24,388 nt of DNA, taken from a virus. Below the pieces are notes generated by a model. The model was given only the letters and a program-made list of their open reading frames with translations. It had not been told where the DNA came from and did no database searches. Both the position numbers and the translations under genes were made by a program. The stretch is taken from positions 1 to 24,388 of IMG/VR virus record IMGVR_UViG_3300021178_000042. The stretch is one strand, 5' to 3'. The first letter of the stretch is position 1. Each line of letters begins with the position of its first letter. This document shows, piece by piece, positions 7,265 through 24,388 of the stretch.

Positions 7265-9223
7265 TTAACGTCGTCCTCTCCAGGCTTGCCGAACCGCCAG
7301 CCGCTGCTCCATCTGGCGCACCGACGACTTCTGACGAAAATGCATTTCCAGCGTATTCTGGTTGAACAGAAACACCTGATCGGTGATGCTCAACCGCTTG
7401 CGCGCCGCCTCAGCTTCGCGCGTTCGCTTCTGGATCACAAGCTGCTTGCGCGACTTTTCTTCCCAGCAGTGAACGGCAAACGCCGCAGCCAGCACCCGAT
7501 CATCGTGCTTGGTCGAACCATCGGCCTTGATGCTATCGCCATCCCGCGCAATCGTTTTCATCTCATCGAGCAGTTCAAAACTGCGAATATGGAACATGCC
7601 ATTCGAGACGAAATCCCGCAACCGCTCCATGATCGTGACTTTGAGATGCGTCGTTGTCTTGAAATGCAAGTTGTATCCTGCTCCCATCGAATCCGGACGC
7701 GAGTAAATATATTGCGACACGTTCCGAAAAATGTTTTTCAATCCAGATTCTTCAAGCGGCGGATAACCGTTGTCGATCTGATGCCGCAGTGAACGAAGTT
7801 CGTTGAAAACTGCCGTACCCGGCCCATTGAGTTCGAGGATATACCGAACCCGCGACGTCCCCTTGCTGTACCAGCCAAGTAGTGCGGCGACGACCCACGC
7901 CAACTGGCGTGTATTGATCATTGTGAAATTATATTCCGCCACCTGATCGATGCCATCGGCGTAACAGCGCAACACTTGGATCGACGATCGGTCGTTGTGC
8001 TCGTTCTCGCCGTAGGCGGGATCAACACCGATCACGTACTCCGCATCCTCAGCCGGATCCTCCCATACTTTCAGCTCAAGCGATTTGGTGTTCTCGGCCT
8101 TCAACACCCGCATGTCTACGAATTCCTGCCCGGTCAGGAACATATAGCCGTGGAATTTTTTAGATGCGTGTTTGTTGGTTTGATCGGTCAGCTTCTCGCT
8201 GCCGAAGAAAATCGCTCCGGTCTGCTGGAACGCTTCTTCCTCGAGCCAGGGCTGCTCCTGGATGCGTGTCGTATTCGCTTCGAACGTCGGATCGGTATCG
8301 CCCTCGGCTCGGGCAGTCGGATCGTATTTCTTGCGAACCCACGCGAGCTGTTCCGGCGTAATGTCGACGCCGTATAGTTCCTTGACTTGCTGGATCTTTC
8401 GAATTTCCTCGGGGCTTGGCGCGATATGATCGCCGTACAGCGCCCAGTCCTTATCTGCGTGCTCGATACGTTGTGCATCGTGCGACCACCAGCCGAGAAA
8501 AATGCACTTGCAATGCTCGGTATCCTTGCGCGCTTCCTTCCACATATCGAACCACTGATTGAAACCTCGCGCGGTCGACTCCCAAATGTACAAACGGTTC
8601 GGATTGGTTTGCGCCAGCGCGTTCTTGAACGCTTCCAGACCCTCGGCATTCGACCACGAGCACATTTCCGAACAGTGGGCCAGGCTGAGGCCAGCGGATC
8701 GTCCGAGCGTTCCGGACGTCACCGACTGCCGCACACCCGCAGACATGAACAAAATTTTCGAATTGTTCTCGAGCGTGAGCCCGGCACGATTGTCTTTCTT
8801 GATGCTGGGAAATTTCAACGACTCGGGCAGCGCCCTGATCATGTTCACGAGTTCTTCGCGCGCATCTTCCTTGTGCTCGGAAGTGTCAAACACCAGCGCG
8901 CCTTTCAAACCTTTATGAAGCCCGAGGAAGAAAACCGTCAGCGCGCGGGTGATCGTCGAGAGCCCTAATTGGCGCGATTTCAAAATAAAAAAGTCATGAA
9001 TGTCCTGTTCGAGGCCGTCAAACACCATCGTAATAGCGGATCGCTGACTGGCGTAAAGATGTTGACCAAGAACGATCTCGCCATCTTCCTTGCTGTCGAT
9101 AATGCAGCGATCGAGATACGCGTAAAACGCCTGCTCGACCGCTAACCGCTTCTGGCGAGTCCAGCCTGCCAAGGAACTACTGAGCCTCAAGACCGTTGTA
9201 AAATTACAACAGGAGGCTGACAT
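7265..9223 (-). CDS. terL: Terminase large subunit (packaging ATPase-nuclease)
   Basis: The motor that cuts and packages phage DNA. Numbering from the ATG at 9223: the ATPase has a Walker A-like loop LKSRQLGLST at 81-90 and the downstream SLAHCSEMCSW block at 180-190; the RNase H-like nuclease has VIGVDPAYG with D401, then ELNGPG with E464 and HDDR with D574/D575, the expected acidic triad. At about 652 residues the length is usual. The start is uncertain: the ATG shares a CATG with the divergent plus-strand gene and has no ribosome binding site, and homologous sequence seems to begin nearer to residue 25, so a TTG inside (VL or SSSL) may be the real start. The gene is followed by the zinc-ribbon and portal genes. 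No small terminase was identified in this window. Confidence 0.92.
   Translation of the reverse strand: MSASCCNFTTVLRLSSSLAGWTRQKRLAVEQAFYAYLDRCIIDSKEDGEIVLGQHLYASQRSAITMVFDGLEQDIHDFFILKSRQLGLSTITRALTVFFLGLHKGLKGALVFDTSEHKEDAREELVNMIRALPESLKFPSIKKDNRAGLTLENNSKILFMSAGVRQSVTSGTLGRSAGLSLAHCSEMCSWSNAEGLEAFKNALAQTNPNRLYIWESTARGFNQWFDMWKEARKDTEHCKCIFLGWWSHDAQRIEHADKDWALYGDHIAPSPEEIRKIQQVKELYGVDITPEQLAWVRKKYDPTARAEGDTDPTFEANTTRIQEQPWLEEEAFQQTGAIFFGSEKLTDQTNKHASKKFHGYMFLTGQEFVDMRVLKAENTKSLELKVWEDPAEDAEYVIGVDPAYGENEHNDRSSIQVLRCYADGIDQVAEYNFTMINTRQLAWVVAALLGWYSKGTSRVRYILELNGPGTAVFNELRSLRHQIDNGYPPLEESGLKNIFRNVSQYIYSRPDSMGAGYNLHFKTTTHLKVTIMERLRDFVSNGMFHIRSFELLDEMKTIARDGDSIKADGSTKHDDRVLAAAFAVHCWEEKSRKQLVIQKRTREAEAARKRLSITDQVFLFNQNTLEMHFRQKSSVRQMEQRLAVRQAWRGRR
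9195..9210. promoter_or_regulatory. Inverted repeat between divergent genes
   Basis: GTTGTAA and TTACAAC form perfect 7-bp arms separated by two bases. The element lies directly before the AGGAGG site of the plus-strand membrane gene and within the putative 5' part of the terminase gene. On the plus strand it contains TAAAAT, a good -10 match, so it may be an operator over a promoter. No strong -35 is visible. Confidence 0.45.
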
Positions 9224-9434
9224 GCCCAACCTTATTATTCAACTGATTATTGTGATGCTGATCTGCGGCTTCGTCTATTGGGTCTGGTTGAAGATCGCTC
9301 CACTGATGCCGATTGCCGAACCCTTCGCCAGCATCATCAACGTAATGATCGTGATCCTGATCGGCGCCATCATCCTGTTCTACGCGATCATCCCGCTACT
9401 GGAATCGCTTGGACATCTAAGCCTTGTTCACTAA
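9222..9434 (+). CDS. Small two-helix membrane protein
   Basis: The 70-residue protein has two transmembrane segments, about residues 4-24 (LIIQLIIVMLICGFVYWVWL) and 39-60, separated by a short loop with IAPLMPIAEPF. Its ATG has AGGAGG five bases upstream, the best ribosome binding site in the area. It is on the plus strand, divergent from the terminase start and convergent with the 90-residue gene, with stop codons overlapping by 4 nt. Small double-helix proteins like this occur widely in bacteria and phages; a holin-like or other membrane role is possible but no lysis enzyme is nearby. It looks like an independently transcribed accessory gene. Confidence 0.8.
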   Translation: MPNLIIQLIIVMLICGFVYWVWLKIAPLMPIAEPFASIINVMIVILIGAIILFYAIIPLLESLGHLSLVH

Positions 9435-11299: not shown

Positions 11300-11534
11300 A
11301 CTTCACCCGCAAATGCGTCGCAAAACAAATTGCCGAGCGCGTCATCGGCTTAACCCCGATCTCGGCAACCGATTCGGTCCAGCAATGTATCCACTGTTTG
11401 TACTTGTCGTCCCACTGCAACGAGCGATCGTTCTTGCAGCGAGGACAAATATCCTTGCATAGAGTTTCAAATCCGATCTCGTCGTAGATCGTAATCGTAA
11501 AAGGCCGACGCCGTAACACGAATTCTTCAGTCAC
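11286..11534 (-). CDS. Small zinc-binding protein, CPxC...H...SxC family
   Basis: The 82-residue protein begins at GTG, overlapping the recombinase stop as GTGA. It carries CPRC at 30-33, H50, and SAICFATHLRVKYG near 67-80, a pattern that would bind zinc through C30, C33, H50 and C70. The same motif order occurs in the 84-residue protein encoded at 22838-23092, so the two are paralogues. The frame extends far upstream but the longer version lies inside the recombinase and is not coding. Function is unknown; a nucleic-acid-binding or protein-interaction role is possible. It lies between the recombinase and the TPR glycosyltransferase. Confidence 0.72.
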   Translation of the reverse strand: MTEEFVLRRRPFTITIYDEIGFETLCKDICPRCKNDRSLQWDDKYKQWIHCWTESVAEIGVKPMTRSAICFATHLRVKYGQA

Positions 11535-12247
11535 GACGCCCTCTGAATCTGCTCGACCATCCGCTCTATCTGCAGCGGCTTGAACGTCTTGCCGCTCCGC
11601 GACCGCAACCCCTGCTTCTCCAGCCCATTGACCATCCGAAGCGGCGAAAACAGATGGCCGTAGGTCTGCCGCGTTGACTTGACCAACTCCAGTACGCGCT
11701 GCTCCCCGAGCTCGATCTCCAGCCGCGCCTCGCGCCCCTGGCCCACGATCTTCCAGCCATACGGTGCCGAACCGCCGGCATGCCCGCCCTTCATCCGCTT
11801 CGCTGCCTTGCCTTCCAGCATCCGCCCGCGGATGGTATCGCGCTCGAGCGTCGCGCACGCCGCCATGATGGTGAAAAAGAAATGCGCCATCCCGCCATCC
11901 ATGTTGACGGGCTCGTTGCCGAGATTCTGCAGCACGAGTTTTACCCCTTGCTCCTTCCACTTCTCGGCAACGTTGAGCGCGTCCTTGGCCGAGCGGAACA
12001 TGCGATCAAGCTTGGCGGCAAATACCGTATCGCCAGGCCGCGCATCGGTCAGCAGCTTCTCGCCGCCCGGTCGCAGATGCAGCGGGGTCGCCCCTGATAC
12101 CCCGGCATCGACGTAAATCTGCAGATCGAACTTGGTAAAACCCATCATCTGGGCATAACCGCGCGCGATCTGTTCCTGGGTTTCCAGCGACGTCCGATCA
12201 GCAGCTGCTTGTTCATGAGTCGACACGCGGGCATAGGCAAGAAGCAT
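11531..12247 (-). CDS. Serine recombinase (resolvase/invertase family)
   Basis: The 238-residue protein starts MLLAYARVSTHEQ, with the catalytic Ser at position 9 and Arg at position 7. Further family features are the CxxD-type strand IYVDAGVSG, GDTVFAAKLDRMFRSAKDAL and the long E helix ATLERDTIRGRMLEGKAAKR. The C-terminal part is a short HTH-like DNA-binding region (MVNGLEKQGLRSRSGKTFKP). Such enzymes cut and rejoin DNA through a serine-phosphodiester intermediate in inversion or resolution. I chose the ATG at 12247 because AAGGGG lies about seven bases before it; the frame opens 24 bp earlier. The ribosome binding site falls within a hairpin, and a palindrome lies just upstream. No obvious paired recombination sites were found by eye. 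Confidence 0.88.
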   Translation of the reverse strand: MLLAYARVSTHEQAAADRTSLETQEQIARGYAQMMGFTKFDLQIYVDAGVSGATPLHLRPGGEKLLTDARPGDTVFAAKLDRMFRSAKDALNVAEKWKEQGVKLVLQNLGNEPVNMDGGMAHFFFTIMAACATLERDTIRGRMLEGKAAKRMKGGHAGGSAPYGWKIVGQGREARLEIELGEQRVLELVKSTRQTYGHLFSPLRMVNGLEKQGLRSRSGKTFKPLQIERMVEQIQRAS

Positions 12248-12248
12248 A

Positions 12249-12265
12249 ATAACCCCTTCGGTTAT
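12249..12265 (-). promoter_or_regulatory. Hairpin holding the recombinase ribosome binding site
   Basis: On the minus strand ATAACC and GGTTAT pair around the loop GAAGG, so the purine-rich site is in the loop and the first bases of the stem. It ends one base before the ATG. It could limit recombinase translation. Confidence 0.45.
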
Positions 12266-12267
12266 CG

Positions 12268-12288
12268 GCACACTATGCTATAGTGTGC
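12268..12288. promoter_or_regulatory. Palindrome upstream of the recombinase gene
   Basis: GCACACTAT and ATAGTGTGC form perfect 9-bp arms around GCT. The site overlaps the stop codon of the gene before it and lies 21 bp upstream of the recombinase start. It has no T-run, so a terminator is less likely than an operator or a recombinase binding site. Related cores occur at 21015-21029 and 23356-23370. Confidence 0.6.
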
Positions 12289-23403: not shown

Positions 23404-23571
23404 TCAAATATTCTTGCGCTCCGCATCCAGATGCTCGATCATCGCCTTGCAGAAGAATCGGAGATCATCGCCATCAAGCCCCAGTTCCTTGAACCGGCGA
23501 AGCAGCTCGTCGCTCAGCAACTTAAAAGCTTTCGCCTTGCGAATGTCCTCGATCGCTACCGGGTCGGTCAT
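23404..23571 (-). CDS. Small acidic helical protein, 55 aa
   Basis: The protein starts MTDPVAIEDIRKAKAFKLLS and continues with DELLRRFKELGLDGDDLRFF and a C-terminal helix ending AERKNI. It is amphipathic and helical, with mixed charges. Its ATG overlaps the stop of the preceding coiled-coil gene as ATGA. It is shorter than many annotation cut-offs and could easily be missed. No function is known. Confidence 0.65.
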   Translation of the reverse strand: MTDPVAIEDIRKAKAFKLLSDELLRRFKELGLDGDDLRFFCKAMIEHLDAERKNI

Positions 23572-23780
23572 GCACGTACGTCCAAATATTTCAGCTCAGC
23601 CTCCGCAACCTCCGCCCGCCGCTTCCACCGATCGCGGTCGATCGCCAGATTACGCACCGTCACCTCGAGCTTGGCAATATCGCCCCGCAGCCAATGGTTC
23701 TCCTGCGCCTTCTTGCTCGCCACCCGCTGCGCCCGCTTGAACTCCTCGCGATGATCGCGAAACTCGGTGGAGTCGATCAT
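23568..23780 (-). CDS. Coiled-coil protein, 70 aa
   Basis: The protein is one long charged helix (FKRAQRVASKKAQENHWLRG through LAIDRDRWKRRAEVAEAELK) with heptad-like spacing, and no membrane segment. It starts with an ATG that overlaps the stop of the methyltransferase frame A as ATGA. A role as an assembly or regulatory coiled coil is possible; nothing specific is recognised. Confidence 0.62.
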   Translation of the reverse strand: MIDSTEFRDHREEFKRAQRVASKKAQENHWLRGDIAKLEVTVRNLAIDRDRWKRRAEVAEAELKYLDVRA

Positions 23781-24388
23781 GGCCTCAGCTCGTACATCGC
23801 CTCTACGGCTGATGTGACGAACGCTGACGCCGGGCGCGGGTCGATCGCGTTACCAAAACCCCGCAGGAGACCCACGCGATTGGGAAACTCATCAACCAGC
23901 AGACGAACTCCGGATTTAACGCGCCTCGCTTTTCCATCGGCACCGATGACCCAATCGCAGCAATCTGCTGCGTCAGCGGAATCCCCGTATCGTGCGGGCG
24001 CGGCGGCTGGTTGCCCCGCCTGTGCTCCACTGCGGTCGGCGTATTCCACGTTGCAGCGCTCGCCTGGTTCGCCAGCTGCTCGCCGTGATGCACTTTCCTC
24101 GGCGTGTGCGTGCGCTCGTGACTCGTCGCCGTTGCCCAAAATGTTTGACTCGGTAGCGGTTGGCCTCCCGCTCCGAACTGCATGTTCGGTCCACCCTTCT
24201 CGCCGTCGCTCGCGCGGATCGTCGACCACACTACCCGCCCCAATAACCCGTTCACCGGTACGTTCGGGCAGAACGCTCCGTCCTTGTGATCTCTCGTCGT
24301 CGTCGGCCAGGTCGATGCCGCGGCTGTTTGAATATTCATCCCGCCGTCGCGACCTTCCGTTCCAGCTCCCGTGCTGCTGCTGTGAACC
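23777..24388 (-). CDS. Cytosine-5 DNA methyltransferase, C-terminal part (partial)
   Basis: This frame is open to the right edge, so the N-terminal catalytic motifs, if present, are outside the window. Its C-terminus has the features of motif X and the segment before it: WVIGADGKARRVKSGVRLLV then RVGLLRGFGNAIDPRPASAF, with the G-N-A-I signature. The preceding part is low-complexity and contains RREGWTEH. Its TGA overlaps the next gene as ATGA, in keeping with the operon. Methylation of phage DNA to avoid restriction is the usual role. A second frame over the same DNA (23803-24339) also looks methyltransferase-like, so the true product here is open. Confidence 0.6.
   Translation of the reverse strand, partial: GSQQQHGSWNGRSRRRDEYSNSRGIDLADDDERSQGRSVLPERTGERVIGAGSVVDDPRERRREGWTEHAVRSGRPTATESNILGNGDESRAHAHAEESASRRAAGEPGERCNVEYADRSGAQAGQPAAAPARYGDSADAADCCDWVIGADGKARRVKSGVRLLVDEFPNRVGLLRGFGNAIDPRPASAFVTSAVEAMYELRP
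23803..24339 (-). CDS. Alternative frame with methyltransferase-like C-terminus
   Basis: This ORF of 178 codons overlaps the frame A gene nearly completely. It begins MNIQTAAASTWPTTTRDHKD, has DGEKGGPNMQFGAGGQPLPS and ends with KRGALNPEFVCWLMSFPIAW, a pattern also seen at the C-terminus of phage DNA methyltransferases. Its ATG overlaps the stop of the short upstream frame as ATGA, which favours it as a separate gene; there is no close ribosome binding site. It may be a second product, a frameshift remnant, or the sequence of a related gene read in another frame. Confidence 0.4.
   Translation of the reverse strand: MNIQTAAASTWPTTTRDHKDGAFCPNVPVNGLLGRVVWSTIRASDGEKGGPNMQFGAGGQPLPSQTFWATATSHERTHTPRKVHHGEQLANQASAATWNTPTAVEHRRGNQPPRPHDTGIPLTQQIAAIGSSVPMEKRGALNPEFVCWLMSFPIAWVSCGVLVTRSTRARRQRSSHQP
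24336..24388 (-). CDS. End of an upstream gene (partial)
   Basis: Sixteen codons run in from the right edge and read FTAAARELERKVATAG before TGA, a helical C-terminus. The stop overlaps the ATG of the 178-codon frame as ATGA, as with most gene junctions here. The identity cannot be determined from so little sequence, and it competes with frame A for the same bases. Confidence 0.4.
   Translation of the reverse strand, partial: FTAAARELERKVATAG

Follow-up and report, generated by a model that had tools for sequence, protein, structure and literature searches.

A phage C5 cytosine methyltransferase probably encoded as two subunits in overlapping reading frames

We analysed a 24,388-base virus record (hereafter the window), the last 612 bases of which contain two overlapping reading frames on the minus strand. 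We propose, with a probability of roughly 0.85, that the locus encodes a two-subunit phage C5 cytosine methyltransferase, in which frame A (alpha) provides the catalytic subunit and frame B (beta) provides an internally started recognition subunit of the same enzyme. Both frames are under selection, B shows an excess of start codons, and the parts of single-frame enzymes that A and B match complement each other.

Specifically, frame A would yield a catalytic subunit with motifs I–VIII and X, while frame B would be translated separately in the host, from a start inside A, into a second subunit composed of an N-terminal piece overlapping motifs VI–VIII, exchangeable W-x-T-P... modules in a row, and a motif-IX-like end. 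In A, the residues facing the B modules would form a poorly conserved and probably disordered linker. The two products would bind each other and assemble into one enzyme, in which B would choose the target site and supply motif IX as well as recognition; the heterodimer would methylate the phage's own DNA, probably protecting it against host restriction. If this is so, a single locus specifies a heterodimer, and the specificity of the enzyme evolves in an overlapping frame. Most overlapping genes are short or have no clear function; here the second frame would be the missing half of a well-known enzyme.

The two frames in the window

Frame A (23777-24388, minus strand; 203 codons and a stop) is the C-terminal part of a C5 cytosine methyltransferase, as identified by the motifs in its relatives, their match to PF00145 over about motifs IV–VIII, and an M.HhaI-like fold. 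Its 5′ end is cut by the contig edge. In complete relatives, frame A holds C5 motifs I, IV, VI, VIII and X in one chain, the motif names being our assignment by pattern; the window contains only the motif X part. The motif X core, GFGNAI (23843-23860, minus strand), of which GNAI is invariant in the alignments, lies within a conserved C-terminal segment, DGKARRVKSG...GFGNAIDPRPASAF... (23780-23938, minus strand), which corresponds to conserved alignment columns.

Frame B (23803-24387, minus strand; 194 codons and a stop) is shifted by +1 relative to A (−1 from B to A) and would comprise target-recognition modules and a motif-IX-like end. Its 5′ end is likewise cut, and the B start lies beyond the contig edge. 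The end stretch, LNPEFVCWLMSFPIAW (23872-23919, minus strand), aligns with the matching stretch of single-frame enzymes, and its assignment as motif IX is made from its place before motif X. In relatives, the B residues P, W and L of this stretch are conserved at 0.99-1.00, and A is variable there.

A preliminary description of this DNA had proposed two overlapping methyltransferase-like frames, each with an ATGA link to a neighbour, and a database search with each translation. Both frames are real, and their PHROG matches, to families named DNA methyltransferase, differ: A matches phrog_363 (E 3.4e-4), and B matches phrog_31772 (E 1.7e-12) and phrog_1008 (E 2e-7), the latter two being matched by the B frames of relatives as well. 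The best PHROG match of window frame B is phrog_27243, which has no named function, and a Pfam search with both window frames gave no match. Queried separately with tblastn, A and B match the same phage methyltransferase records in different frames. The A and B profiles gave no match to each other, and the B profile gave none to PDB sequences.

The link between A and the next ORF (70 aa; 23568-23780, minus strand; no PHROG match) is real as sequence, with the stop of A overlapping that ORF as ATGA at 23777-23780. The link proposed between B and a preceding frame (ATGA, 24336-24339) is probably due to chance, since no stop interrupts B between this point and the contig edge, and the preceding frame has only 16 codons in the window. 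The ATG at 24339 was also considered as the start of B and was rejected, B being open upstream of it.

Elsewhere on the minus strand, PHROG matches to a major head protein (990-2039), a terminase large subunit (7265-9229) and an integrase/DNA invertase (11531-12271) indicate that the window probably comes from a tailed phage with a temperate life cycle.

Stops and substitutions in the second frame

Long extra frames are favoured by high GC, and the GC content of the window is 63%. In the window alone, shuffling A synonymously leaves B equally open in 95 of 2000 cases, and shuffling B leaves A equally open in 29 of 2000. The double opening within the window is mildly unusual and constitutes weak evidence; the relatives are decisive, also against the explanation that B is a mere shadow of the constraint on the A protein combined with high GC.

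The relatives were gathered through frame A alone, as the best 80 from IMG/VR and the best 80 from GTDB genomes. The main stop test used looser patterns on these 160 loci, from which six duplicates and six loci without an A ORF by the pattern were removed to leave 148 distinct relatives, and it covered the span from eight codons after motif IV to 14 codons before motif X, with the expectation derived from synonymous shuffling. Frame B contains 0 stops vs 428.4 expected and is open in 148/148 distinct relatives, while the other frame of the same relatives contains 1414 stops vs 1278.7 expected. The B motif-IX pattern is present in 139/148.

A narrower set was defined by a motif pattern that took 218 of 258 loci (40 were missed), of which 186 were distinct; one with ambiguous bases was dropped, leaving 185 genes. 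In the 130 of these that were reached through frame A, B contains 9 stops from codon 45 on, vs 436.6 expected, and 0 stops in alignment columns 96 to 868. Codon usage varies along the gene, which matters for stop avoidance at alignment columns 64-96.

We also compared codon positions in 56 close pairs, drawn from 403 candidates with every sequence used once. The ratio of differences at A position 3 to differences at A position 1 is 3.96 over motifs I–IV, before the overlap, 1.38 over motifs VI–VIII, 0.71 in the recognition region, 0.88 at motif IX, and 3.46 at motif X. The commonest site of substitution is A position 3 ahead of the overlap and A position 1, the wobble position of B, in the recognition region. 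The DNA thus evolves like A before and after the overlap, like B in the recognition region, and like both over motifs VI–VIII. In addition, B residues are fixed where A varies: a B tryptophan at 0.99 lies opposite an A leucine at 0.81, a B tryptophan at 0.98 opposite an A leucine at 0.52, and a B proline at 0.99 opposite an A proline at 0.53.

On these sequence comparisons, the overlap is true dual coding, with both frames under selection. Dual coding had been among the explanations first offered for the locus, and the relatives support it: instead of one frame being unselected and interrupted by stops, B is uninterrupted throughout and bears its own codon-position signature of purifying selection.

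That B merely mirrors A is ruled out by the synonymous shuffling and by the codon-position results, with their concentration of differences at A position 1, and we give the idea practically no credence. Furthermore, the same overlap is present at 42-48% GC, in phages L260, L261 and L262 (0/1000 shuffles each; L numbers are our handles for loci), and the +1 frame shows no excess openness in two single-frame actinophage enzymes, Gordonia phage Phinally gp5 and Mycobacterium phage Akhila gp60 (145 and 186 codons, reached in 166 and 58 of 300 shuffles).

Complementary parts of one enzyme and the start of B

Phinally gp5 and Akhila gp60 each have one frame that contains motifs I–VIII, LLPTP modules, a stretch resembling motif IX, and motif X. 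Their modules (LLPTP...) and IX-like end resemble B, and their motifs IV–VIII resemble A; they differ from the overlapping pair in having every part in a single frame. The B profile matches the recognition region and motif IX of the single-frame actinophage enzymes (E 1.6e-7, probability 93.9), and the A profile matches their motifs IV–VIII (E 3.6e-12), with motif X not covered.

In the AlphaFold model of A, the catalytic part scores mostly 90 or more, and the top PDB match is M.HhaI (E 1.7e-8). Residues 190-216, opposite the B modules, score below 50 and are without structure. B alone is modelled poorly (mean pLDDT 64.8, pTM 0.31): an N-terminal helix and hairpin are modelled, a C-terminal helix less well, and the rest is poor. 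A Foldseek search with this weak model found no PDB match at E 0.001. The poor model of B alone would not conflict with B being a subunit that needs its partner in order to fold.

The profile match of B to the recognition region and motif IX of single-frame C5 methyltransferases argues against the alternative that B, rather than being a methyltransferase subunit, is an overprinted protein of its own with a different function, such as anti-restriction or regulation. The absence of a modelled recognition domain in A argues against it as well, as does the presence of motif X in B in three relatives (L277, L293 and L325). We consider this alternative improbable, even though B has no Pfam or NCBIfam family at the cut-off in the members scanned, and even though in one relative (L022:2086-3414) the B ORF does not stop with A but reads on into an endonuclease VII domain (PF02945, E 6.4e-24). 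The latter arrangement, apparently a fusion of recognition subunit and nuclease, would fit an independently made B product.

The position of motif X differs between relatives. In L277, L293 and L325, A stops just past motif VIII, and B holds the modules, motif IX and motif X, while in Paenibacillus phage HB10c2, which is related to these three, motif X is in A. A motif X supplied from either frame makes most sense if both products form one enzyme. The earlier suggestion that an old frameshift changed the frame used in different phages holds only in a limited sense, in that motif X is in B in these three loci and that the single-frame actinophage enzymes have everything in one frame. Motif X appears to have been swapped between the overlapping genes, being in frame B in L277, L293 and L325 and in frame A in a related phage, L349.

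An ATG in frame B, between the last stop and the conserved core, is present in 184 of the 185 genes of the narrower set; the same count in shuffled genes has a mean of 153.5 and a maximum of 161 (20 shuffles). A Shine-Dalgarno match of at least 5 bases precedes the B ATG in 86 of 185 genes (shuffled mean 27.4, maximum 35), and a match of 6 bases in 44 genes (shuffled mean 7.65, maximum 13). The start position differs between relatives, with hot spots at alignment columns 53 and 108-109. Despite this variability, the enrichment of starts and of Shine-Dalgarno-like sequences indicates that B is most likely made by internal initiation, as a separately initiated second subunit and not as a frameshift product.

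These starts bear on a further proposal of the preliminary description, namely that programmed ribosomal frameshifting fuses both frames into one methyltransferase chain. The two frames have one fixed offset in the records compared, and a +1 shift just past motif VIII in L277, L293 and L325, at the end of A, would yield a complete enzyme. With a programmed frameshift, no conservation of the second frame would be expected ahead of the fixed shift site; however, the codon positions of B are constrained already over motifs VI–VIII (1.38 vs 3.96 upstream), a stretch that a shift after motif VIII would leave unused. In addition, A is complete without the B frame in most relatives, with its own motif X, and the enriched start codons and Shine-Dalgarno-like sequences of B point away from a shift. 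We therefore regard programmed frameshifting as highly improbable.

Recognition modules, known systems and breadth of the overlap

The recognition region of B in the window is a mosaic, the blocks of which (all on the minus strand) match different relatives. The block STGAGTEGRDGGMNIQTAAA (24316-24375) is common to the window and L003, with 18/20 residues identical in B and 8/20 in A, and with 2, 2 and 13 differences at B positions 1, 2 and 3. The recognition module TWPTTTRDHKDGAFCPNVPVNGLLGRVVW (24226-24312) is similar in L003, L007, L010 and L018. The first 26 residues of the module WSTIRASDGEKGGPNMQFGAGGQPLPSQ (24145-24228) are identical in L002; over this block, WSTIRASDGEKGGPNMQFGAGGQPLP, identity is 26/26 in B and 15/26 in A, and the 11 nucleotide differences fall 0, 0 and 11 at B positions 1, 2 and 3. 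A further module starts with TWNTPTAVEHRRGNQPPRPH (23992-24051) and has the W-x-T-P module pattern. B is the better conserved frame in 9/9 blocks compared. In two window comparisons (the C-terminal part of L011, and L013), B position 3 was not the most variable. Across 32 independent module pairs of equal length, taken from loci whose N-terminal parts are unlike, identity is 84% in B and 48% in A, and the differences number 178, 114 and 519 at B positions 1, 2 and 3. Blocks and pairs alike were picked for their similarity in B, a choice that favours B, so the figures serve as illustration and the 56-pair codon-position test is the fair one.

We find it reasonably likely that the arrangement extends across a large phage C5 methyltransferase family, in which the recognition half would be overprinted on the catalytic gene, cassettes would be exchanged under selection on B, A would serve as a tolerant linker, and motif X would be mobile between the subunits. 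The locus would then be a testable case of specificity evolving inside an overlapping frame.

The closest known enzyme is M.EcoHK31I (C5, YGGCCR), which has two polypeptides where we find two frames. Its small polypeptide is reportedly encoded within the large gene in a different frame (work attributed to Lee, Kam and Shaw, 1995). According to one source, the large polypeptide of M.EcoHK31I carries motifs I–VIII, motif X and a predicted recognition domain, and the small polypeptide carries motif IX (PMC3404938). Likewise, the A frames of relatives carry motifs I–VIII and X, of which the window has only X, and the IX-like end is found on the second frame, B. The two systems differ in the recognition domain, which that source places in the large subunit by prediction (PMC3404938), while in the phage family studied here the conserved recognition modules are found in frame B. 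As the placement in that literature is a prediction, the placement in B may correct it; if so, the recognition domain of M.EcoHK31I-like enzymes would lie in the small subunit and not in the large one.

M.AquI (CYCGRG) is also a split C5 enzyme, the second chain of which carries motifs IX and X. The window differs from it, having motif X in A, while the layout of L277, L293 and L325 is similar, with both motifs in B. Unlike in M.AquI, the overlap in the phage family spans most of the gene. In Arthrobacter phage Kabreeze (gp80/gp81) and Mycobacterium phage Jarcob (gp69/gp70), a single C5 enzyme has its motifs split over two genes in different frames, with motifs I–VIII or I–VI in one frame and the remainder in the next; as annotated, these genes overlap at the junction only, and the downstream gene holds the modules and motifs IX and X. 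Within the open-licence literature we found no description of a phage overlap of this kind, which is a weak negative, nor of recognition modules in an overlapping frame, module exchange or motif X movement.

The overlap is common to hundreds of phages and prophages, with the second frame kept open for about 160-320 codons across hundreds of loci. A tblastn search with one B returned 226 phage records, the frame relation being checked in those fetched, and three scans of IMG/VR confirmed at least 597, 588 and 507 relatives, the best 80 of each being used. When 80 loci were classed by pattern, 50 had the overlap, 21 lacked a motif IV match, 5 had no hit, 3 were classed as other, and 1 was in frame; reading the rows of the 21 showed the same overlap in 20, the remaining one being L293. 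In L260 and L263, the overlap is present with another N-terminal type of C5 enzyme.

Annotation of the locus is inconsistent, records carrying A only, B only, both or neither, and specificity prediction or enzyme cloning from one frame would fail. In phage K1ind2 (L014), both frames are annotated, as nested DNA methyltransferase genes at 1042-1971 and 1130-1927. A single frame is annotated in N15 (gene 58), RcIroh, YMC16/01/N133, MET_P1_001_43 and ctNMl277, yet B is open over most of A in each. Neither frame is annotated in SAP012 (L264), and the annotation of R6L (L265) covers the B end only. The public records of K1ind2, SAP012, R6L, PhiXhv-18 (L266) and K1H (L267) have none, the B end only, or both annotated.

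Some loci depart from the common layout. In L295:1-2050, the overlapping pair occurs in two tandem copies, the second apparently without a start. In L303:788-2033, B extends about 140 codons past the end of A, possibly as a further fusion. In L310:2298-3260, each of three frames holds one of the recognition modules, motif IX and motif X, a pattern like that left by an indel, which may be a mutation or a sequencing error.
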